Source: Armatimonadota bacterium (GTDB lineage Bacteria > Armatimonadota > UBA5829 > DSUL01). Taken from it: a stretch of 64,000 nucleotides of DNA. Below are positions 3,726-59,649 of the stretch, piece after piece (the first letter of the stretch is position 1; every line of letters starts with the position of its first letter). The notes below the pieces were generated by a model. It saw only the letters and a program-made list of their open reading frames with translations, was not told the origin of the DNA and did not search any database. The position numbers were made by a program, and so were the translations under genes. Location: positions 2,806,162-2,870,161 of the forward strand of contig AP024674.1 of assembly GCA_025998755.1 (NCBI GenBank). The letters run 5' to 3'.

Positions 3726-5363
3726 TCAGCTATTCCCGGCGGAAACGGTCTCCGACGCTTTTGTGGCCTCCCGGATCGCTCCGCCCCGTGCGAACGGCAG
3801 GCTAAAGAGATAGCCCGCCACCAGGCTGACCCCCAGAGAGAACGGAAGGATATAAGTGAAGCTGAGGTAAGAGTCCCGTCCGGTCAGCACCTTGACGATC
3901 TCCGAATAATACGATACCACCACGCCCACCAGGAATCCGGAGATGATCGCCGCCCAGGCACCCGCCGCATTCGAACGCTTCATATAAAACGCCATAAGGA
4001 ACAGTGCGGCCACCGGAGCAATGAAGAACAGATTGACTTTCTGGGCGACCTCCATGAAGTTGCCCTTGATGTACTGCTGAACGAAGGCCACCATAATGGC
4101 CAGCGTGCCCACCGCGATGCCGATACTGCGGGCGCGGGCCACGGTGCCCTCGGTGGTAGCAACCTTCGCAAAACGCTCTGGAAAATCCACCATCAGCACG
4201 GTGGTCACGGAGTTCACCCCTGACGAGACGCTGGACATCGCCGCGGAGAACAAAGCCGCCAGCAGCAGCCCGGAGACCACCGGTGGCAGAACGTGAGCGA
4301 TGAACCAGGGGAACAGTTTGTCCGCTCCGTGGGTCAGCACGTACAGCTGCCCCTCGAGACCGCCCAGCCTCCGGGCCTGCTCCGCCACATCTGCGCTCAT
4401 TCCCAGTCCGCCGGGACCTTCCGCCGGCGGAATGAGCTGGGGGTTGTGGGTGAAAAAGCCGAGCAGGGCGAAGCCCACCAGCGCAAGCGACACCCCCAGG
4501 AAAAGACCCGCCACCGCGTTAGTCAGAAAACTGCGCCGGGCGCTCGCGGCGTCGCGCGTGCTCAGGTAGCGCTGAATGGTCAACTGATCCGAACTGGAAG
4601 CGGCGATCCACCAGATGAACTGATGGAGCACAATCCCGAAAACCGTGATGCGTTGCGAGAGACTGGTGGGAAAGATCGGTGTCGGCTTCCAGCCCAGGTC
4701 CAGGTTCCGTAGGTCCGGCCACCAGGCGGTCACGCTCCCAAAGTGCCACATCACGTACACGACAACCGCCAGCGTTCCCCCGAAAAGGATTAGCGCCTGC
4801 ATGACGTCTGTCACCACCACCGCCCGGAACCCGCCCATCGTGGTATAGGCCGTCGTCACCGCTCCGACCACAACCAGAAGTACGGGGACCGGAATGCCGG
4901 TCATCGCGGAGAGCGCCACGCTGCACGTGAAGACCACAAGCCCCAGCCACGAGAGCCGGGTGAGCACAAACAGCAAGGCCGCTGCCCGCCGGATGCCCCT
5001 GCCGAACTGACGCTCCAGCAGCTCATAGCCGGACACAATGGGCGCAGCCATGATCCGCGGGATGATGAAGTACCCGATGATAGGGTAGGCCAGCCAGATG
5101 GAGAGAGCGCTCCACAGGACTCCGGGGCCGTTCTTGATGATCTCGCCGGGTGTGGTCAGATAGGTGATGGTGCTCACCAGCGTTGCCATCACGGACAGGC
5201 CCACCGCGATCCAGTTCTGCGTCCGCCCGCCCAGAAAATACTCGCCAAGATCAGTCTGGCGGCGGGAATAATACCAGCCAACCAGCATCACTGCCACAAA
5301 ATAAAGGGCCACCACCCCGTAGTCCCAGGCGGTGAGCCCACCGTGCGTCTGTGTCGCTCTCAA
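3726..5363 (-). CDS. Sodium:solute symporter (SSS family)
   Basis: This 545-residue polytopic membrane protein has roughly a dozen hydrophobic segments. Its N-terminal DYGVVALYFVAVMLVGWYY and GEYFLGGRTQNW are characteristic of the SSS family, followed by TTPGEI and the GGFRAVVVTDVMQ region typical of SglT/PutP-like carriers. It would import a sugar, sugar acid or similar organic solute coupled to Na+. The start is TTG at 5363, preceded by AGGAG at 7-base spacing. It is the last gene of an operon with a regulator, an aldolase and an oxidoreductase, and begins 22 bases after the oxidoreductase stop. The substrate is probably the compound catabolised by those enzymes. Confidence 0.92.
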   Translation of the reverse strand: MRATQTHGGLTAWDYGVVALYFVAVMLVGWYYSRRQTDLGEYFLGGRTQNWIAVGLSVMATLVSTITYLTTPGEIIKNGPGVLWSALSIWLAYPIIGYFIIPRIMAAPIVSGYELLERQFGRGIRRAAALLFVLTRLSWLGLVVFTCSVALSAMTGIPVPVLLVVVGAVTTAYTTMGGFRAVVVTDVMQALILFGGTLAVVVYVMWHFGSVTAWWPDLRNLDLGWKPTPIFPTSLSQRITVFGIVLHQFIWWIAASSSDQLTIQRYLSTRDAASARRSFLTNAVAGLFLGVSLALVGFALLGFFTHNPQLIPPAEGPGGLGMSADVAEQARRLGGLEGQLYVLTHGADKLFPWFIAHVLPPVVSGLLLAALFSAAMSSVSSGVNSVTTVLMVDFPERFAKVATTEGTVARARSIGIAVGTLAIMVAFVQQYIKGNFMEVAQKVNLFFIAPVAALFLMAFYMKRSNAAGAWAAIISGFLVGVVVSYYSEIVKVLTGRDSYLSFTYILPFSLGVSLVAGYLFSLPFARGGAIREATKASETVSAGNS

Positions 5364-5384
5364 GAACGTGCTCCTGTCATGGCC

Positions 5385-6377
5385 TCAGGCTCTGTTCATC
5401 TCCTCCTGCCCATCCAGCAAATCCAGACAGAGCCGAAGGGTGTGCGCCGCATCGGCGATCCCCGTACGCATCGGGGGGCCGCCCCCGATCGCCGCCAGAA
5501 ACGCCGCAGCCTGCCTGCGGAGCGCTTCAGCATAATCCGCCCCATACAGATGAACGTGCTCCCAGGAGGAGGCTCCCTTCCTCCACACCTCGCACTCGAA
5601 ACCCGGTTCCCGGATCCTGAGGGATGCCTCAGGCCCGGAGAAGTCGTAGACGTTCTCGTTGACCGGCTGATACTGATTGACGTGCAGCACTCCGATTGCG
5701 GGACAATCCTGGAAGTCGAAGCAGACTGCAACGGTGTCGTCCACATCCACGCCGGCAAGCGCCAGATGCCGGGCGAATCCCCGCATGCTGCGGATGGGGC
5801 CGCCGTACCACTGGATCAGGTCCAGAAAATGGCTGGCGAAGTCAAGGGTACAGCCGCCGCCTTTGTCCCGTGACGCATAGTATATGTCTCGATAGTCGGG
5901 ACGGTAGGCCGCGAAAGGCTGCCCTGCGCATACCCGCACACTGAGAACCGGCCCCATCTGGCCGGAGTGAACCAACTCGTGAGCATACTCGTGTGCTGGG
6001 TGATATCTGCGAACATACGCGATGCCCGCGATTGCTCCGGGATGCTTCTCTGCTTCCTCCAAGAGCTCCGGCACGCCGTCCCAGCTGGCAGCGAGAGGCT
6101 TTTCGCAGAGCACAGGCACGCCTTCCCGGAGACAGCGGATCAGGAAGGGAACGTGCAGGTGAGACGGGACACAGATGACCACGCCGTCGAACTGGCTGAG
6201 ATCCGTATCCTCCCACGAGGTCTCCAGCGTCTGTGCTCCGTGCTCACGCGCCAGAACCAGACGACGCTCGTCGGCGTCTATTACTGCGATGGCAGTGGAA
6301 GGGTCGGCGGTGGAAAACGCCCGGACCTGTTTCAAACCGATGCTGCCGGCGCCGACGATCAGAATGCGCGCGCTCAT
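5385..6377 (-). CDS. Gfo/Idh/MocA family oxidoreductase
   Basis: This 330-residue NAD(P)-dependent oxidoreductase starts with ILIVGAGSIGLKQ, the Rossmann dinucleotide-binding motif. CEKPLA follows near residue 94, the catalytic-lysine region of the Gfo/Idh/MocA family. The C-terminal half is the mixed alpha/beta substrate domain. The ATG at 6377 has AGGAGG at 8-base spacing. It sits between the HpaI-type aldolase and the SSS symporter on the same strand, so it probably oxidises or reduces a sugar, inositol or sugar acid that the symporter brings in. The exact substrate is not determinable. Confidence 0.9.
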   Translation of the reverse strand: MSARILIVGAGSIGLKQVRAFSTADPSTAIAVIDADERRLVLAREHGAQTLETSWEDTDLSQFDGVVICVPSHLHVPFLIRCLREGVPVLCEKPLAASWDGVPELLEEAEKHPGAIAGIAYVRRYHPAHEYAHELVHSGQMGPVLSVRVCAGQPFAAYRPDYRDIYYASRDKGGGCTLDFASHFLDLIQWYGGPIRSMRGFARHLALAGVDVDDTVAVCFDFQDCPAIGVLHVNQYQPVNENVYDFSGPEASLRIREPGFECEVWRKGASSWEHVHLYGADYAEALRRQAAAFLAAIGGGPPMRTGIADAAHTLRLCLDLLDGQEEMNRA

Positions 6378-6437
6378 CGCCCGGCCTCCTTTTCCACGGG
6401 CGGGATCGCGAGGAGCCCCATCCCCGCTTCCCGCATG

Positions 6438-7241
6438 TTACAGGAGTAGATTCGAGAGCACCGCGCCGGAAACCCTTTTCTGGAACTCCCGGATCAGATT
6501 CTGGCAGTAGCTGTTCAGTCCCACCACATCCGCGCCGATGTTCAGGAATGTGTAGCCCAGCTCCACCAGCTCTTCCACGTTGTCCAGATTGGCCACCGTG
6601 CCCGCGAACTTGCCGTGCTGCCGGGCCGCCTGCGCCACACGGCGGCGTGCTTCCAAAACGCGGGGATGGTCGAAATCTCCGGGCACTCCCAGCCCGTGAC
6701 TGAAGTCGGCCGGCCCGAAGAAAAGAATGTCAATTCCCTCCAGAGACGCGATGGCATCCAGGTCCGCCAACGGCTCGGGATCTTCGATCTGAACGGCCAC
6801 GAAGCGCTGCTCGTTGGATTCACGGATGTAGTCCGCAAGGTCCACGTTGCAGTAGATGCCGTCTGCGTTTCCGCCGTCCAGCGGCCGGCGGCCCAGAGGA
6901 TGGAAGCGGGTCATCCGCACCACCTCGCGCGCGTCCTCCACACTGCGGATGTGCGGCACCATAATGCCGGCCGCGTCCAGTTCCAAAGGGCGGATGTAAT
7001 CGCTGTAAGCGCCACGGGTGACACGCACCAGCACGTCGGTGTTCTGGGTCTTGGCCGCCCAGATCTGCTTCTCGACGATATCCCAGTCGTTGGCGGTATG
7101 CTCAAGGTCGCTCCAGATGCAGTCAAACCCGAACACCCCCACCAGCTCCGCCAGGCGGGCGCAACTGGAATTCAGTTTGAAGCAACTGGCGACCTCTCCT
7201 GCACGCAGTTTGGCCAGCACGCGGCTCGGTCTCATATGCAT
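6438..7241 (-). CDS. HpcH/HpaI-family aldolase
   Basis: This roughly 267-residue class II (metal-dependent) aldolase belongs to the HpaI/citrate-lyase-beta-like TIM-barrel family. Visible motifs are DCIWSDLEH near the N-terminus, QIEDPEPL with a metal-ligand Glu, and FFGPADFSHGLG with a metal-ligand Asp. Family members split 2-keto-3-deoxy sugar acids to pyruvate plus an aldehyde. The frame opens at a GTG at 7277, but the ATG at 7241 (or ATG 7235) fits the family start better and follows a GGAGG. Co-transcription with a FadR-type regulator, an oxidoreductase and a symporter fits a sugar-acid catabolic operon. Confidence 0.87.
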   Translation of the reverse strand: MHMRPSRVLAKLRAGEVASCFKLNSSCARLAELVGVFGFDCIWSDLEHTANDWDIVEKQIWAAKTQNTDVLVRVTRGAYSDYIRPLELDAAGIMVPHIRSVEDAREVVRMTRFHPLGRRPLDGGNADGIYCNVDLADYIRESNEQRFVAVQIEDPEPLADLDAIASLEGIDILFFGPADFSHGLGVPGDFDHPRVLEARRRVAQAARQHGKFAGTVANLDNVEELVELGYTFLNIGADVVGLNSYCQNLIREFQKRVSGAVLSNLLL

Positions 7242-7364
7242 GGATGTATCCGTTGCCTCCCCCGCCGCACGGCCCACCGGAAACCTGGGTATCCTACCAG
7301 GTGTGGGCGCTTCCTGCCGCCGGCGCTTCTGTTAGTAAAAAACTTCGAGCCTGAGCTCGCAGAA

Positions 7365-8093
7365 CTAAAAACCCGAGTCCCCGTTACTGCCGGAAGGCCG
7401 CTCCCTGTCCTTGTACTTCTCCAGTTGCGGGTCCCAGGTATGGATGTGGCGCCGCATCACGTCCTTGGCGGCATCCACATCGCGGGCGCGCAGAGCGGCG
7501 AGCAGCTCACGATGCCCCTCCGCAGTCCGGTCCCGGGCATCCATTCCCACCAGCTTTTGCGCCCGCTGGAAGAACCGGGCCAGGAACGCGCCAAACTCAC
7601 TGAGAATGGGATTGTCCGCAATCTCCAGGAGTTGCCTGTGGAAATCCAGGTCCAGTTCGGTGAACTCTTCCGCCGTCGTCGCCTCACTGATGCGCCGGTT
7701 GCACTCCTCCAGTTGCAACAGGCTGACCTCGTCCAGGTTCCGGACCACCAATTCCATCAGACCCACCTCGATGATGAGACGTGCCTGGATGAAGTGGGCC
7801 ATCTCCGGATCATTGCGCAGGATGGCAAACGAGATGTGGTCCACCACGTTCGAATAGTCGAACGAGGAGACATACATCCCGTCCCCCACCTTGATCTCGA
7901 TCAGTCCTACGGCCTCAAGGGACTTTAGAGCCTCCCGCAGGATATTGCGGCTTACGTTCAGGCTGGAAGTCAGGATCTTCTCGGAAGGAAGGCGGTCACC
8001 CGGTCCGAGGTTGTTGGAGGAGATGTAATCCTTGATACTCTCCATCACCCTCGTGGTGAGGTTAACCCGTCTGACAGGTTCGATCTGCTTCAT
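7365..8093 (-). CDS. FadR/GntR-family transcriptional regulator (FCD domain)
   Basis: This 242-residue regulator has an N-terminal winged helix-turn-helix (residues about 10-75, PGDRLPSEKILTSSLNVSRN and IEIKVGDGMYV). A C-terminal all-helical FCD ligand-binding domain follows. The FCD metal-site pattern is visible as DFHRQLLEIADN, EGHRELLAAL and MRRHIHT. Such proteins usually repress a neighbouring catabolic operon until a sugar acid or organic acid binds. It is the first gene of the leftward operon with the aldolase, oxidoreductase and symporter, so autoregulation is likely. A GATAC-N16-GTATC inverted repeat sits just upstream of its start. Confidence 0.9.
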   Translation of the reverse strand: MKQIEPVRRVNLTTRVMESIKDYISSNNLGPGDRLPSEKILTSSLNVSRNILREALKSLEAVGLIEIKVGDGMYVSSFDYSNVVDHISFAILRNDPEMAHFIQARLIIEVGLMELVVRNLDEVSLLQLEECNRRISEATTAEEFTELDLDFHRQLLEIADNPILSEFGAFLARFFQRAQKLVGMDARDRTAEGHRELLAALRARDVDAAKDVMRRHIHTWDPQLEKYKDRERPSGSNGDSGF

Positions 8094-8375: not shown

Positions 8376-9539
8376 TCAGTACTCGCCAATCCCCGCCAGC
8401 GTCTCCACCAGATCCCACCGGCTCTCCAGAGTAGGCGGGTTGGTGGACGGGTTCAGGGCTCCCGTGGCCTTCACATAGTCGAACGGGTTCACGGAGTGAG
8501 CCGGCGCCTTTACCAATATCGGACGGCCGGACCCGTCGTCCACAGTGAACTGATCGCCCGTGAAGAACTCGTTGAAGTCCACCTTACCGAACACGGTGAA
8601 CCGGAAGTTGTTCCGGGCCTGGTTCATAATGGGATCCTTGGCCGCCTTGTTGTTGATGGTCACCACCGGCAACGGCGCGCTCTCGAAGTCGTATTCGTAG
8701 TCCACGCCGTCAATTCCGATGACCAGCTTGTCCACGTAACCCCACACGCTGGACTGGTCGTGCCACCACGGCCCGTAGCGGCTGTCCACAACCTGCCCGG
8801 AGCCGATCTTGATGGCGATGGAGGTTCCGGTCTGGTTGGCCAGCTGCAGGTTGGCGTTCATCGGATCGCGGTAGTCGCCGACGTATGGCGTCGCGAGCTT
8901 CATACTCTCGCCGGCGGCGTCGTAGCGCTTCCGCAACCACTCCCAGTTGCCGTAATAGTTTGTGCTGGAGGTGCCGACCAGCTCCCACCAGCCGTTCGGA
9001 TCCATAAGATCCCACTTCTGCCAGGTTCTCATCTCGACGGGCCACGTGGCACCGCCTGTGTAACCGGTCGGCCGGACGGTATAGCCCCACGGATAGAACC
9101 AGAAGCGGCGTTGCTGGGCCGTGGTGCCGCTGTCGGTAATGATCTCAATCATCGGCGGCCGGCCGCGATCGTAATCGCGATACTGAACATAAGTCCAGTA
9201 CTCGAACTTGGTGATCCGCTTCAGCTCGATGCCGCTGAAATTGTCGGTCCCCAGATAGACCTTCGACAGCGGATTGTTGTCGCTGTAGAAGACCTGCATT
9301 CTGAACGAGCCATCCCCTGCAGGAGGGAGTCCGGGGCCGTTCACGAACTCCCCGACAGGCATCTGCGCGGGCTCCTGCGGGTTGTCCCAACCGCCTTTCA
9401 CTCCCTGCTGGATGGCCAGCTTCCACCCCTTCGATTCCATATTACCAGGGGTGACGACGATGGTCTCCGCGGTGGCGGCGCCCGCCATCAGGGCGGCAAG
9501 AGCCCCTGCGGCGAAGCATCTGACGAAGGCACGTCTCAT
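8376..9539 (-). CDS. Secreted protein, tandem paralog of the downstream PEP-CTERM protein, with extra C-terminal OB-like domain
   Basis: The preferred ATG at 9539 is preceded by AGGAGG and opens a clear signal peptide ending near AGAATAE, giving 387 residues. The central roughly 230 residues match the neighbour at 9701-10567 closely: SKVYLGTDNFSG, PPMIEIITDSGTTAQQRRFW, WELVGTSSTNYYGNWEW and ATPYVGDYRDP all have counterparts. Unlike the neighbour it has no PEP-CTERM tail. After the shared DGVDYEYDFE it continues for about 90 residues with FRFTVFGKVDF and FTVDDGSGRPILVKA, resembling small OB-fold-like modules. The function is unknown. It probably acts outside the cell, perhaps in surface attachment or glycan binding. 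Confidence 0.8.
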   Translation of the reverse strand: MRRAFVRCFAAGALAALMAGAATAETIVVTPGNMESKGWKLAIQQGVKGGWDNPQEPAQMPVGEFVNGPGLPPAGDGSFRMQVFYSDNNPLSKVYLGTDNFSGIELKRITKFEYWTYVQYRDYDRGRPPMIEIITDSGTTAQQRRFWFYPWGYTVRPTGYTGGATWPVEMRTWQKWDLMDPNGWWELVGTSSTNYYGNWEWLRKRYDAAGESMKLATPYVGDYRDPMNANLQLANQTGTSIAIKIGSGQVVDSRYGPWWHDQSSVWGYVDKLVIGIDGVDYEYDFESAPLPVVTINNKAAKDPIMNQARNNFRFTVFGKVDFNEFFTGDQFTVDDGSGRPILVKAPAHSVNPFDYVKATGALNPSTNPPTLESRWDLVETLAGIGEY

Positions 9540-9610
9540 GGTCACTTGATCCTCCTGTCCTGAAGCGGCCGCTTCCCGCTGAAGGGAGGGCGGCGCTGCA
9601 AACTTCCTGT

Positions 9611-9639
9611 GGCCGGGCGGGCGGATGTCCCGCCCGGCC
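9611..9639 (-). terminator. Perfect GC hairpin between tandem paralogs
   Basis: An 11-base arm at 9611-9621 pairs perfectly with 9629-9639 around a 7-base loop. It lies downstream of the PEP-CTERM gene ending at 9701 and upstream of the second paralog. It lacks a clear U-tract on the minus strand, so it may be a processing or stability element and not a true terminator. Confidence 0.4.
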
Positions 9640-9700
9640 GACAAATCATTCCGGGGACGCGCCGCGCGCCGCATCCGCACGTCCCCGACAGACATTGCCG

Positions 9701-10567
9701 TTACTTCCGATTGCGGCGCAGCAGCCCGCCAAAGGCACCCAGCCCCAGGGCAAGCGCAGTCAGCGAAGCCGGCTCGGGAACCACCTCGAAGTCGTAGACG
9801 TAATCCACGCCGTCAACTCCGATCACCAGCAGATCCACGAAGCCGTTGATGCTGCTGGATGTGCGCCACCAGGCTCCGTAGCGACTGTCCTGGGCCTTGC
9901 CCGCGCCAATCTTGACGCTCAGGCTGGTGCCGGTCTGGTTGGCAAGCTGCAGGTTCACCAGCGGGTCCACATAGTCGCCCACGTAAGGAGTGGCCAGCTT
10001 TGCGCCCGGATAGCGACCCACCACCCAGGTCCAGTTACCGAAGTAATTCGAGCTGCTGGTGCCAACAAGCTCCCACCGGCCGTTCGCATCCATCAGATCC
10101 CATTCCTGCCAGACGTTCAGCTGAACGTTCTGGTTGCCGTTGGGACCCCAGGGCAGGAACCAGAAGCGGCGCTGCTGGGCGCTTGAGCCGCTGTCCGTGA
10201 TCAGCTCGATCATCGGCGGCTGCCCATCGGCGTAGTCGCGATTGGTCACGTAGGTGTAGTACTTGAATGAGGTGATGTTCGCGAGCGGGACACCACTGTG
10301 ATTGTTGGTGCCAAGATATACCTTCGAGATCGGATCGGTGTCGCTGTAGCCCGTGCGCATCTGGAACGAGCCGGATCCGGCCGGCGTGGTCCCCGGACCG
10401 TTGACGAACTGCGCGGTCGGTGGCGTGCTGGACGTCCCCTGCCGGGTGGCGAACACCCATCCCTGCAAGTCGCCGGGCCAGACCACAACGGCGCCGGCGG
10501 GAGCCAGAGCGCCGATCAGAAGAGCGGCGGCCGTCACGGCCACCACGGGAAGCGCGAATCGCTTCAT
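9701..10567 (-). CDS. PEP-CTERM sorting domain-containing secreted protein
   Basis: This 288-residue protein is read from ATG 10567, which has AAAGGAGG at good spacing; an adjacent ATG at 10570 is the alternative. A signal peptide ends near APAGAVVV. A roughly 230-residue beta-rich domain is shared with the protein at 8376-9539. The C-terminus, VPEPASLTALALGLG then a hydrophobic stretch and LLRRNRK, is a classic PEP-CTERM exosortase sorting signal. It is therefore expected to be exported, processed and surface-attached or released into extracellular matrix. No exosortase gene is in the window. The function of the main domain is unknown. Confidence 0.87.
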   Translation of the reverse strand: MKRFALPVVAVTAAALLIGALAPAGAVVVWPGDLQGWVFATRQGTSSTPPTAQFVNGPGTTPAGSGSFQMRTGYSDTDPISKVYLGTNNHSGVPLANITSFKYYTYVTNRDYADGQPPMIELITDSGSSAQQRRFWFLPWGPNGNQNVQLNVWQEWDLMDANGRWELVGTSSSNYFGNWTWVVGRYPGAKLATPYVGDYVDPLVNLQLANQTGTSLSVKIGAGKAQDSRYGAWWRTSSSINGFVDLLVIGVDGVDYVYDFEVVPEPASLTALALGLGAFGGLLRRNRK

Positions 10568-10972: not shown

Positions 10973-11923
10973 CTGCAAGCAGATATCAGAGAACCGAGCG
11001 AACGAACTGCGGCCATCCTGAGCGCCCTCGGGGCGACTGTCTCCTACGGGGTGACGCCGGTGTTCCTTCGTCACTTCACCGCGTGGCTGGATCCGTGGAT
11101 GGTCAATGGCATCCGATACAGCATCGCCGCCCTGTTCTGGTTGCCGGTGGTCCTCTCCATGCGCGGTTGGTGGAGCGGAGACGGGGCAAGCCCCGGCATC
11201 TGGAGGGCGGCGATGGTTCCTGCCGTCATCAACGCGACAGGCCAGGTGCTCTGGGGGCTGTGTCCCTATTTCCTTACCGCCTCGGTCATCGGGTTCGCCT
11301 CGCGCCTGTCGTTCCTGTTCACGGTGCTCATCGGCTTCGCCCTGGTTCCGCGCGAGCGTCTGCTGGCTCGTCAGCCGGCCTTCATTGCCGGATCCCTGGT
11401 CTGCGTCGCGGGAATGCTTCTGATGTTCCGGGACCAGCTTGCCGCGCCAGGAGCATCGGTCGCCGGGGTGGTCATCATGACGCTGACAAACGTGATGTTC
11501 GGAGCCTATGCCGTCAGTGTGGGACGGCATCTGGGTGGATTTCCCACGCGCCTGAGCTTCGGTGTGGTCAGCCTGTATACCGCACCGCCCCTCCTCCTGT
11601 TGATGTTCCTGCTGGGAGACCTGCCTTCGGCCGCGCGTCTGGACGTGAACCTCTGGGGCCAGATCGCCGCCTCCGCGCTGATCGGCATCGCGCTTGCCCA
11701 CGTGTTCTACTTCCGGAGCATCCACGGACTGGGTCCGGTGGTCTCGACGGGGCTTTTGATGGCCATTCCTTTCGTCACCCAGGTGACGGCCTCCCAGTTC
11801 CTGAGAGAGCGGATGACGTCGCTTCAGTTGGCCGGCGGTTTGATTCTCGTGGCGGGAGGAGTATTGCTGATAATCGCGCGCGCTTGCGCAGACACAGCCG
11901 CGATGGAAGACCTGCCGGCCTGA
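10973..11923 (+). CDS. EamA/DMT-superfamily transporter (start uncertain)
   Basis: This roughly 316-residue polytopic membrane protein has about ten hydrophobic segments in two homologous halves, typical of the drug/metabolite transporter superfamily. The first ordinary start codon is GTG at 11051. Coding potential clearly continues upstream in frame (ILSALGATVSYGVTPVFLRH), supplying the conserved first membrane helix. No ATG, GTG or TTG exists between the in-frame stop at 10937 and 11051. A CTG at 10973 sits 4-5 bases after GGAGGG and is the best non-canonical start. It probably exports a small metabolite or amino acid; the substrate is unknown. Confidence 0.85.
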   Translation: MQADIREPSERTAAILSALGATVSYGVTPVFLRHFTAWLDPWMVNGIRYSIAALFWLPVVLSMRGWWSGDGASPGIWRAAMVPAVINATGQVLWGLCPYFLTASVIGFASRLSFLFTVLIGFALVPRERLLARQPAFIAGSLVCVAGMLLMFRDQLAAPGASVAGVVIMTLTNVMFGAYAVSVGRHLGGFPTRLSFGVVSLYTAPPLLLLMFLLGDLPSAARLDVNLWGQIAASALIGIALAHVFYFRSIHGLGPVVSTGLLMAIPFVTQVTASQFLRERMTSLQLAGGLILVAGGVLLIIARACADTAAMEDLPA

Positions 11924-12029
11924 CTCGCCCACCGCATCATCCGGGCCGGGTTGCTCCCCTCCGCAAAAAGCACGGATAATCCCTGAGTCTTTCGCTATTC
12001 AAGGTTTCAAAGGGAGAGTATTAAGGCGG

Positions 12030-13307
12030 ATGAGTTCAGCAACAGGGGTCATCGTTTTGCTCCTTGTGTGGTCCCTCGCCGCGGTGCCTGTGCTGGGGGG
12101 TACCTTTTCGGTGAAGGATTTCGGGGCGGCAGCCGACGGTGTCACGGACGACACCGCGGCTTTCCAGAAGGCCCTTCAGCGCGCCGCGGAGCAGAAGGGG
12201 AGCTCGGTTTTCGCCCCGGCAGGGAGGTACCTCATAGCAGGTTCGCTTCAGATCCCTGCCGGAATTACCCTGTATGGCGAGTATCGCGGACCGGGCAGGC
12301 AGCGTGGAACGGTGCTGCTCTCTACGTATGGCAAGGGCAGAAGCGATGGCCCGGGCTGCATCATGGCCACCGAGAAAGGATGCGCGGTGCGTGGCATCTG
12401 CATCGAATACCCGGACCAGACGGCCGACGCCTCCGAGCCGGTTCCTTTTCCCTATGCCATCCACCTCGGCCCGGACGGGCGCCTCGAGGACATTTTCCTG
12501 TACAACGCATATCAGGGCATCAACCTGGATGGTGCGCACGCCAGCGTGGTGCGCAACATATGGGGCGAGCCCCTGAGGGTCGGCATTCACGCGGACCACA
12601 TTTACGACATCTGCCGCATCGAAAACGTGCATTTCTGGCCGTATTTCTCGCTGCACAAGCCCCTGCGCGACTGGGTGCTTTCGCACGGCGTGGCCTTCGA
12701 GTTCGGCCGATCGGACTGGCAGTACTGCCTGAACACGTTCTGCTACGGATACCGCGTGGGATATCGGTTCTTCACCTCACAGGACGTGAAGGACAAGGCC
12801 TATCCGGGCGGAGTCACCAACGGCAACTTCCTGGGCATCGGCGCGGACTGCGTGGGGGTGGCGCTGGATGTTCAGAACAGCTTCAACATCGGTATCAGCA
12901 TCACGAACGGCGAGTTTGCCCCATTCGCAGGGACGCATTGTGTGGGGGTTATGCTTCACGAGACCAATACCGGGAACGTCACCCTGACCAACTGCAACTT
13001 CTGGGCGGTGGCGGAGGCGCTGGCTGTCGTGAACGGCGGATCGCTGAACATGACCGGCTGCAACATCAACGACTGGAACGTGTCGAAGAAGGGAGATCTG
13101 CCTGCGTTCACGGTCACGAAAGGTCGGCTGAACGTCAACGGATGCACGTTCAACAGTGGCGGTCTTGCCGCCGTGTTGCAGGGTGACCAGAGCCGCGTCA
13201 GCTTCACGAACAACATGGGTACCGTGCCGCTCAAGGTCATCAACCGCATCGGTTCCCGGGCGCACTTCAGCGGCAACAATCCTCCCATCGACGTAATGGA
13301 GGAGTAA
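12030..13307 (+). CDS. Secreted pectate-lyase-superfamily (right-handed beta-helix) protein
   Basis: This 425-residue protein has an N-terminal signal peptide. TFSVKDFGAAADGVTDDTAAFQKAL follows in two parts, the diagnostic start of the Pectate_lyase_3 / GH28-like beta-helix fold. Repeated short strands rich in Asn and Gly (NVTLTNCNFW, LNMTGCNIND, LNVNGCTFNS) are the coils of the helix. Members include polygalacturonases, lyases and phage-like tailspike depolymerases. No catalytic set is certain here, so substrate and mechanism are open. A GGGAGAG lies upstream of the ATG. It follows the EamA gene by about 100 bases on the same strand. Confidence 0.87.
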   Translation: MSSATGVIVLLLVWSLAAVPVLGGTFSVKDFGAAADGVTDDTAAFQKALQRAAEQKGSSVFAPAGRYLIAGSLQIPAGITLYGEYRGPGRQRGTVLLSTYGKGRSDGPGCIMATEKGCAVRGICIEYPDQTADASEPVPFPYAIHLGPDGRLEDIFLYNAYQGINLDGAHASVVRNIWGEPLRVGIHADHIYDICRIENVHFWPYFSLHKPLRDWVLSHGVAFEFGRSDWQYCLNTFCYGYRVGYRFFTSQDVKDKAYPGGVTNGNFLGIGADCVGVALDVQNSFNIGISITNGEFAPFAGTHCVGVMLHETNTGNVTLTNCNFWAVAEALAVVNGGSLNMTGCNINDWNVSKKGDLPAFTVTKGRLNVNGCTFNSGGLAAVLQGDQSRVSFTNNMGTVPLKVINRIGSRAHFSGNNPPIDVMEE

Positions 13308-56727: not shown

Positions 56728-57555
56728 ATGAGAACAACAGCTCTGAAGCTTGTTGCGCTTTTTGCGGCCGTGCTTGCCGCTCTGGCAGTCTCTGCGGACG
56801 CGCGTCCGCACTATTACGTGGGTTGGGAGAACCGCCCGCTGATCACCAGCGGTACTTACGCCGGTCTGGCGGAGCCCAATTACAACCGCCTGACCTTCCT
56901 GTTCGGGCACTTCTACGAGGACAATCCCAACAGCAATCACTTCCACGGTGTCGGACGATATACATACTCTGGCCCGCGGACCTCGCCCGTCGTCGTGGAT
57001 ACCAGCGGCAACAACCGCCTACCGGAGATCTTCGCGCGGGTGGAGGAGCCGTTCATCCCCCTGCTGCCGGGTAGCGGTGCCTGGGCCGGCAAGTATGTTT
57101 CCGGACTGGCCGAAGGAGAATACGCGCGCCTGACCATCGCCACCGTCGGCACTCTGAACGGGGGCGACGAGGGCGAGCAGACCCTGTTCAACAGGAGCCC
57201 GCACTATGCCGGGTCGCTGGACGGCTCCACGGTGGCGCTGGAGCTCCTGGAGATCAGCCCGGGCCTGCACGTGGCCGATGAAAGCGGTAATCCGCTCTTC
57301 GGCAGCGGCAACCTGGCCGTGCTGGGATCCGGTAACATCTGGCAGTTCACGCCCGTCTTCTGGGCGGATCTGTCCGTAGGCCCGGATGTTCCGCTGACCG
57401 CGAAGTTCCGTCTGGTGGATCTGAACGGTGTCCGGGAGCCGTCCGGCTACTTCTACTACGACTTCCAGACGGTGGTGCCTGAGCCCGCCAGTCTGATCGC
57501 GCTAGGAACGGGTCTGGCCGGTCTCGCCGCGGTTCGCCGCCGCAGCCGCGCCTGA
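56728..57555 (+). CDS. PEP-CTERM protein resembling the all3515 (Zur-repressed) family
   Basis: This 275-residue protein has a signal peptide ending near SADA. RPHYYVGWENRPLITSGTYA, LAEPNYNRLTFLFGHFYEDN and PNSNHFHGVGRYTYSG follow, with NNRLPE and VPLLPGSG-like spacing. This pattern is what I recall for the cyanobacterial all3515 family of PEP-CTERM proteins, known as Zur-repressed. The C-terminus, VVPEPASLIALGTGLAGLAA then RRRSR, is a PEP-CTERM sorting signal. It is probably a surface-exposed metal-linked protein. Family assignment is from memory and not verified by alignment. Confidence 0.8.
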   Translation: MRTTALKLVALFAAVLAALAVSADARPHYYVGWENRPLITSGTYAGLAEPNYNRLTFLFGHFYEDNPNSNHFHGVGRYTYSGPRTSPVVVDTSGNNRLPEIFARVEEPFIPLLPGSGAWAGKYVSGLAEGEYARLTIATVGTLNGGDEGEQTLFNRSPHYAGSLDGSTVALELLEISPGLHVADESGNPLFGSGNLAVLGSGNIWQFTPVFWADLSVGPDVPLTAKFRLVDLNGVREPSGYFYYDFQTVVPEPASLIALGTGLAGLAAVRRRSRA

Positions 57556-57626: not shown

Positions 57627-58394
57627 ATGAAAAGACTTGGAATCGCTCTGCTACCGCTCGTCGCATCCGTTTCGCTGGCTGCGGCGATTTGCAGTCTTGC
57701 TTCGCCCGCTTTCGCGGAGGAGCACGAGCATTTTTCCGGGCACGTCGGCGTTGACGTGCGCGACGGCTCGTTCCTGATGGGCCGTTTCTACAAAGTGGAT
57801 GGCATTCCGCACTTTGACGAGAGCCATAAGGTCTTCCCGGTTGAGCTGGAACTGGATGAAGCCCTGGGTTACTGGATCTCCAACGAGCCTGGCTACGCTG
57901 GGTTCTGGAGCTACAGCGCCAACCCGGTGGATCTGGTGGGACTGCGGCTCGGCATCGCCTTTGCGGATTCGGTCTGGAAATGGGACCGGTCCGCCTTCGT
58001 TCCGTCGACTTCGGAACGTTTGCGCGTGATCAATCCCAACGGCCCGGGCTTTACCGAGAGCGGCTCCGGCCCTGTCGGCCCGGCCTTCTGGTTTACGGTT
58101 GGTTCAGACAACTGGTGGCACGATCACGTGCCGGTCCGACTGATCGCCACCGCGGGTGACCCCAATTCGCCTTCTGATGGCCTCTACCTGGCCCTGCTGC
58201 GCGTCCAGAGCCAGGACGGTTCCATCGGTCCCTCGGACCTTTACGCCATGGTCTTCAACAAGGGCATGTCCGAGGAGGATCATGATGCCGCGGTGGACTG
58301 GGTGGTCGAGAACGTCGTGCCTGAGCCCGCCAGCCTCACGGCGCTGGCGGTCGGACTGGCCGGACTGGTCGCGATGCGCCGGCGATCCGTCTGA
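57627..58394 (+). CDS. PEP-CTERM secreted protein with His-rich N-terminus
   Basis: This 255-residue protein has a signal peptide ending near PAFA, then EEHEHFSGHVGVDVRDGSFL. This recalls the GHxHxDxxxxDG start of actinobacterial surface-anchored proteins with the TIGR03769 or choice-of-anchor M domain. Later WHDHVPVRLIATAGDPNSPS and LYLALLRVQSQ fit the second half of that fold. The C-terminal VVPEPASLTALAVGLAGLVA plus RRRS is a PEP-CTERM tag. Upstream AAAGGAGAAAAGG provides the ribosome site. It may bind metal at the cell surface; function is not established. Confidence 0.8.
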   Translation: MKRLGIALLPLVASVSLAAAICSLASPAFAEEHEHFSGHVGVDVRDGSFLMGRFYKVDGIPHFDESHKVFPVELELDEALGYWISNEPGYAGFWSYSANPVDLVGLRLGIAFADSVWKWDRSAFVPSTSERLRVINPNGPGFTESGSGPVGPAFWFTVGSDNWWHDHVPVRLIATAGDPNSPSDGLYLALLRVQSQDGSIGPSDLYAMVFNKGMSEEDHDAAVDWVVENVVPEPASLTALAVGLAGLVAMRRRSV

Positions 58395-58500: not shown

Positions 58501-59649
58501 ATGATCAGGCTTTTCAGCCTGGCTGCCGTTGTCGCAGCCGCGCTGCTTGCCCAGTGCGGTTTTGCTCACCACGAGCACGACCTGCACTTTGGCATCTCCG
58601 GCGGCAAGATGGCGGTGGTGGAGCCGAGCACCTTTGAGGTTCCTAAAGTACTTTACTTCGATGGAGAGAACTATCTGCGCGACCAGGGCATGGATGGGGT
58701 GTTGGTCTACCTGCCTGGAGGTGGGAGCTACTGGCAGCTGAAGAGCTTCACCTGGAGGCAACTCTCCATCACGCCGGGACTCACTATCGGCAACTGGTTC
58801 GGGGATGGCCGGCCGGGATTCGCCAACCTGGACGACGGAGCCAACCGGCATCTGCACCGGCTCGTGTCCGCCCGGCAGCCCGGCACGTATGTCTTCACCA
58901 GTTACCTTCACTCAGGAAGAGACCACCTGGGCAATCCGGTGCCGGATTCCGAGCCGTTCACCATGATCTGGGTGACCGCCCGGAACAATGACAACGACGC
59001 CCCGGCGTATGCCGCGGTGGATCTGCCCCTTCTGCGCAACCTGCCGGATACTCCCCTGTTCCCGCTGGAGAACGGATGGGCGGGTGTGGAGCTGTCCGGG
59101 CTGGTGGTGTCGGCGGTGTTCCCGTCCGGCTTCTATGCCCAGACTCCCGGCCGGACGGGTGGAGTGTTCGTTCAGGGCGGCTCCGGCGCCGCTCCGGGGG
59201 ATCGCGTGACGGTACGTGGCTGGCTGTCCACCCGTGGTTCGGAAAGGGTGGTGCTTCTGAATGAGCCCCTCGAAAAGACTGCATCCGGCGCGCCTCCTCG
59301 GGCTCTCTCGGTTCGGTGCTCGGCTGTGGGAGGGGGCAGCATGGGCAAATACACGCCGGCCACGAAGGACGGGAAAGGCATCTCCAATACCGGTCTGCTC
59401 ATCCGGGTGGCCGGGGTGCTTCGCTCTGAAGGCAACAGGCTGTATGTGGACGATGGCAGCACGCCGGTCAACGACGCCGCATCGGTGAGAGGTCTGAAGG
59501 TCTCCACGGAACTGCTCGGTTCGCCTGTGGTCTTTCCGCCGGCAGGCTCATTTGTGATCCTGACGGGAGCGAGCGGCACGGAGGAAACACCCGGCGGCAT
59601 CATCCCGGTGATCCGGGTCCGGGGACAGTCGGATATCGTGGTACCCTGA
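58501..59649 (+). CDS. Secreted His-motif protein with OB-like repeats
   Basis: This 382-residue protein has a signal peptide ending near CGFA, directly followed by HHEHDLHFGISGGKMAVVEP, an even denser His motif than its neighbour. The first roughly 160 residues resemble a TIGR03769/choice-of-anchor-M-like domain (FANLDDGANRHLHRLVSARQ, GTYVFTSYLHSG). The rest carries two OB-like modules: LSGLVVSAVFPSGFYAQ to DRVTVRGWLS, and LIRVAGVLRSEGNRLYVDDG to GSFVILTGASG. There is no PEP-CTERM tail. It is the last gene of the cluster and is followed by a strong terminator. Confidence 0.78.
   Translation: MIRLFSLAAVVAAALLAQCGFAHHEHDLHFGISGGKMAVVEPSTFEVPKVLYFDGENYLRDQGMDGVLVYLPGGGSYWQLKSFTWRQLSITPGLTIGNWFGDGRPGFANLDDGANRHLHRLVSARQPGTYVFTSYLHSGRDHLGNPVPDSEPFTMIWVTARNNDNDAPAYAAVDLPLLRNLPDTPLFPLENGWAGVELSGLVVSAVFPSGFYAQTPGRTGGVFVQGGSGAAPGDRVTVRGWLSTRGSERVVLLNEPLEKTASGAPPRALSVRCSAVGGGSMGKYTPATKDGKGISNTGLLIRVAGVLRSEGNRLYVDDGSTPVNDAASVRGLKVSTELLGSPVVFPPAGSFVILTGASGTEETPGGIIPVIRVRGQSDIVVP

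Follow-up and report, generated by a model that had tools for sequence, protein, structure and literature searches.

In type IX secretion, many secreted proteins that are otherwise unrelated end in a C-terminal domain of about 80 to 100 residues. The PEP-CTERM/exosortase system (EpsH) was described by Haft et al. in 2006, and the passages of that paper relevant here treat PEP-CTERM regions as a modular domain whose copies resemble each other more inside one species than across species (PMC1569441). Haft and Varghese (2011) reported that one protein family can carry GlyGly-CTERM, LPXTG, or PEP-CTERM as alternative functional tails, and the logic of following a C-terminal domain together with its processing enzyme across genomes was published with GlyGly-CTERM and rhombosortase (PMC3237569). 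Both the existence of alternative tails within a family and the modular spread of PEP-CTERM are already published, as the relevant parts of these two papers make clear (PMC3237569, PMC1569441). In those parts of the rhombosortase paper, the alternatives are short tripartite tags compared across genomes (PMC3237569), whereas at the locus described here one of the alternatives is an OB-like domain, and both tails are found on neighbouring genes of one genome.

The locus lies in a window of 64,000 nucleotides, by which we mean the whole stretch of DNA that was analysed, from an Armatimonadota bacterium (contig AP024674.1). Two genes follow each other on the minus strand, first P0002 (9701-10570, 289 residues) and then P0001 (8376-9539, 387 residues), separated by a gap of 161 bp (9540-9700, minus strand) in which a three-frame reading revealed no remnant of either a PEP-CTERM or an OB tail. 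Both proteins start with an N-terminus that looks by eye like a signal peptide and continue into a core domain, at 9770-10492 in P0002 and at 8667-9464 in P0001 (both minus strand). The two proteins share 55% identity over 291 positions when the signal-like N-termini are included (BLASTP, 3e-103), and the cores share 57.7% over 265 positions. The original prediction of neighbouring proteins with a common core and near-identical blocks is therefore confirmed, and the four blocks singled out there (SKVYLGT, AQQRRFWF, ELVGTSS, and LQLANQTGTS) are all identical in the two proteins. The PEP-CTERM tag that it had placed at the end of P0002 was also found, at residues 264-289 (9704-9781, minus strand). 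This tag has the PEP motif, the hydrophobic stretch, and the basic end, and it scored above the cut-off both in Pfam (PF07589, 24.5 bits against 20.7) and in NCBIfam (TIGR02595, 19 against 16). P0002 thus has a tag of the kind described with EpsH (PMC1569441, in the part relevant here), and the source genome (G000) has three exosortase matches (PF09721, best 2.9e-58). At the C-terminus of P0001, no PEP-CTERM was detected by Pfam or NCBIfam, and its printed sequence has no hydrophobic tail; behind its core lies an OB-like C-terminal module of type I, 96 residues long, that extends up to the stop (8379-8666, minus strand). Another species of the genus retains the pair, with both genes 92-94% identical and in the same order. 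A scan for promoters and terminators gave nothing useful on the strand of P0001 and P0002.

The core was not recognised in the original prediction, which would have been refuted had the core turned out to be a well-described family that regularly comes with either tail. Neither alone nor as a set of 21 relatives did the core match any entry in Pfam, NCBIfam, or PDB. The HMM search of the core did bring out relatives, in 7 of the 28 genomes of the class and with seven matches in the source genome, but these do not belong to a curated family, and at E 0.01 neither plasmid nor phage records yielded a relative. An AlphaFold model from four rows (A3) had a pLDDT of 35.7, too low to be of use. A widespread, unnamed extracellular domain has similar motifs, with GW at the start and YDFE at the end, and is a candidate relative of the core. 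The genes beside the pair encode a FadR-type regulator, an HpcH/HpaI aldolase, a GFO/IDH/MocA oxidoreductase, a sodium:solute symporter, an EamA transporter, and a rhamnogalacturonase-like protein. The regions flanking the pair, 3726-8093 on the minus strand and 11051-13307 on the plus strand, look like a pectin/uronate utilisation island, and much of their gene order is kept at L001. From these neighbours, glycan or matrix binding would be a guess at the role of the core. However, the nearest relative in G010 stands alone among housekeeping-looking genes, and we therefore did not use the context to infer the function of the pair.

Nearly all relatives of the core have an OB-like tail after it, and a PEP-CTERM follows the core in three lineages. 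When 27 cores are arranged on a tree, three changes of the tail label are required, all of them forced by well-supported branches, so the core family has undergone at least three tail exchanges. Four partial, broken, or weak loci (L186, L187, L190, and L191) were left out of this tree, and three labels were set by hand: L050 as OB, where the contig ends within the tail, and L184 and L185 as OB-like by eye. One of the omitted loci, L187 (G011:C6:293537-294502), is a core-family gene with two interrupting stops, while its relative L183 in G019 is open. Since most core relatives are OB tailed, an OB-tailed first state is favoured for the window pair, with the trio of P0001, P0002, and the G010 relative unresolved on the tree. 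The tail and the body of P0001 differ in their closest matches: the tail is 57% identical to that of the paralog at 2463 kb versus 35% to that of the G010 relative, and the body is 56% identical to the G010 relative versus 38% to the 2463-kb paralog. The AU test did not reject a clade that unites the P0001 tail with the tail of the protein from another genus whose body is closest to that of P0001 (p 0.215).

The tail of P0001 had been called OB-like in the original prediction, and of this claim the separate end of 96 residues stands firmly, while the OB assignment depends on matches below the family cut-offs. The tail itself belongs to no curated family and gave no OB match above any cut-off. 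When 35 relatives of the tail were compared with Pfam, RMI2 appeared in 9 (best 3.9e-5, and below the cut-off wherever a cut-off was printed), BOF in 3, tRNA_anti-codon in 3, and Rep_fac-A_3 in 2, and TIGR00156 matched weakly in 1 of the 35. The best PDB matches of the tail profile, with E values of 0.02-0.4, included RPA14 and HIN proteins, which we take to be OB folds. The AlphaFold model of the tail (A6, two rows) had a pLDDT of 33.0, again too low to be of use. These sub-threshold matches to several OB families support, at the level of sequence, an OB-like domain. The likeness extends weakly to BOF/YgiW (PF04076 and TIGR00156, the 3 and 1 of 35 matches given above), but here the OB domain occurs as a module at the C-terminal end of larger proteins. 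It also differs from PEP-CTERM, as it is a domain of about 90 residues and lacks the PEP motif, the hydrophobic stretch, and the basic end.

Searched on its own, the P0001 tail brings up many large proteins of the class. With a type I profile built from 35 rows (A2), it was found at 1e-3 in 24 of the 28 class genomes and at 1e-6 in 23 of these 28 and in none of the 263 other genomes of the phylum; G012 has an exosortase and lacks the type I tail at the stricter threshold. There were 84 unique strong type I copies, 83 of them complete, and the distance from the complete copies to the stop was at most 12 residues in 73, 13-40 residues in 4, and greater in the remaining 6. A related subtype, type II (A5; profile comparison probability 98.8), forms the C-terminal end of about 19 further proteins of the source genome, and 18 of 18 aligned type II copies from this genome reach the stop. 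The same 24 class genomes have at least 11 type II copies each, and outside the class there was one match in each of 6 of 263 genomes. The window holds a second OB-tailed protein, at 58501-59649 on the plus strand (type II profile, 1.5e-14), and the two genes directly ahead of it (56728-57555 and 57627-58394, plus strand) match PEP-CTERM; no homology was found among the bodies of these three. The bodies that carry type I tails are diverse: in a Pfam scan of 59 of the 84 strong hosts (leaving aside core-family hosts, open reading frames above 1300 residues, and two open reading frames each of L197 and L198), fn3 was found in 10 of the 59 and Amidase_3 in 8, along with Ig-like, C39 peptidase, FG-GAP, and RCC1 domains. 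The tail is a class-wide C-terminal module on unrelated secreted-type bodies. In some large proteins (L143, L151, L155, L165, L177, and L198), the module lies internally or near the N-terminus.

The module is mobile. Within one genome, the tails of proteins with unrelated bodies are on average 40.3% identical, compared to 35.6% (sd 0.6) with shuffled labels, and none of 1,000 shuffles gave a value as high. This resembles PEP-CTERM, whose regions are also more alike within a species in the part of the 2006 paper that concerns them (PMC1569441). Across genera, tails are 36.5% identical for pairs with homologous bodies and 35.2% for pairs with unrelated bodies, so a homologous body adds hardly any likeness and the tails do not track the bodies. 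One G017 protein, unrelated in its body, has 78-81% of its tail DNA in common with FGE-type proteins, compared to 63-64% in the bodies and a background of 58-65% against a distant OB protein.

The alternation of PEP and OB tails on neighbouring paralogs was seen in three unrelated families: the core family, a family at 2324 kb in the source genome, and the FGE-type family of G017. The 2324-kb family has an OB-tailed and a PEP-tailed gene in tandem about 70 bp apart, with bodies that are 78% identical. In G017, three FGE-type genes in a row have three different tails, including OB and PEP (67% for the family). The first of this trio (L059, 3961-5295, G017:C46) ends in a region of the third kind, which is not an OB or a PEP-CTERM tail. 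A further, older pair of the core family lies at 2459 and 2463 kb of the source genome, its two members separated by other genes and about 3 kb, and in this genome a PEP-tailed homologue is found nearby for 3 of the 6 OB-tailed proteins of the core and 2324-kb families. A possible trace of an exchange was found in another FGE-type gene of G017 (C261), where the OB tail has a normal end and stop and is followed, about 25 nt on and in another frame, by a PEP-CTERM stretch. Over 84 nt, this stretch is 92.9% identical to the PEP-CTERM carried by the FGE gene on C46. Such a remnant would be expected if an OB tail had taken the place of a PEP tail. The body reading frame of the gene is broken upstream, and it may therefore be a dead copy or carry an assembly fault. 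This was the only remnant behind an OB stop in the 84 OB genes scanned, and it lies outside the core family of the window. Taken together, the mobile tail, the three alternating families, and the three changes on the tree support the proposed duplication followed by tail swapping, and an origin of P0001 and P0002 by duplication and C-terminal exchange is well supported. What does not hold is that the swap would be particular to this pair, since both tails are modules used throughout the class.

P0001 and P0002 are paralogs that share a predicted extracellular core and differ in their C-terminal modules, and we lean towards explaining them as one exported core with alternative tails. For the function of the OB module, our best reading, possible rather than likely, is that it brings proteins by other means to the surface or matrix associated with exosortase. 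The PEP-CTERM module would route this core through exosortase, while the OB module would act as a targeting or retention domain that offers another route into the same exosortase-associated surface or matrix. Recombination of 3' ends would carry it from one gene to another, and the pair would display one core in two ways. Its C-terminal position and an absence that it shares with exosortase hint that the OB tail, like PEP-CTERM, serves targeting or retention. The more specific idea that the OB domain is a new kind of sorting or surface retention module, a folded domain in place of a short tag, recognised by machinery that is part of the exosortase system or was lost with it, we also hold to be possible but less likely than not.

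Within the class, exosortase, PEP-CTERM, the type I tail (at 1e-3), and the type II tail are each found in 24 of 28 genomes, and these are the same 24. The four genomes that lack exosortase, PEP-CTERM, and OB tails represent only two lineages, namely, G008 and the three genomes of one genus (g8: G009, G013, and G025). The chance of such matching absences is 4.9e-5 when counted by genomes and 0.007 when counted as the same 2 of 17 genera. Since just two lineages lack them, the match could have arisen by coincidence or from a lifestyle that both have lost, and a serious contender, which we hold to fall a little short of probable, is that the four genomes have lost a matrix-forming lifestyle and that the OB module and exosortase are functionally unlinked. 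The small size of all four genomes (2.1-2.9 Mb) fits this explanation, as does the low number of lineages; however, G021 is equally small at 2.1 Mb and keeps exosortase, PEP-CTERM, and the type I tail. By a crude signal-peptide predictor, the density of secreted-like genes in the sampled parts of G009 and G008 (148 per Mb in 210 kb and 134 per Mb in 127 kb) is near that of G010 (160 per Mb in 400 kb), so the tails are not missing there for want of secreted proteins. Across the phylum, exosortase is present in 241 of 291 genomes, mostly without the OB tail, and the OB module is therefore not a general partner of exosortase. G046, with one type II match, is not among the exosortase-bearing genomes.

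Tail shuffling is common on secreted proteins, and OB folds frequently bind ligands. The OB module might then be an ordinary domain that binds glycan, nucleic acid, or metal and stands last by chance, with neutral shuffling of tails and no logic of localisation, and we regard this as possible but not likely. The 6 of 83 complete type I copies that lie internally are what such a domain would allow, whereas neutral shuffling is not expected to keep 73 of the 83 within 12 residues of the stop. The distribution also speaks against an ordinary binding domain, since within the class a genome has either none or many copies, in step with exosortase.

The original prediction had further proposed that the tail swap separates an anchored PEP-CTERM form from a released OB form. 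PEP-CTERM is indeed a known sorting tag, and the OB form lacks a hydrophobic tail, but the OB module itself resembles a targeting tag in being C-terminal, present in many copies, and absent together with exosortase, which makes a simply released form unlikely in our estimation. It is very improbable that the module is a type IX-like C-terminal domain, which it resembles in length, copy number, and C-terminal place on many unrelated secreted proteins, as its sequence is OB-like rather than Ig-like and SprA (SprA_N) was found in 0 of 28 class genomes in a search that had no positive control.

We found no published description, in the open-licence literature searched, of the OB C-terminal module, its abundance across the class, its alternation with PEP-CTERM, or its joint absence with exosortase, and this literature also gave nothing on PEP-CTERM in Armatimonadota. 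As far as it shows, the OB-like C-terminal module is apparently undescribed.

How proteins are delivered to the surface and retained there is unknown for most uncultured bacteria. A domain that is present in many copies, is nearly always last, and is missing together with exosortase within a class is the type of pattern that revealed exosortase and rhombosortase. The remnant behind the OB tail of the C261 gene in G017 suggests a route for such exchanges, and the natural pairs that differ in their tails are ready-made controls, with closely related cores and two tails whose localisation can be compared directly. If the OB domain is indeed a new kind of sorting or retention module tied to the exosortase system, neighbouring OB- and PEP-tailed paralogs would show one extracellular core via two parallel routes, and genes would change from one route to the other through recombination of their 3' ends.
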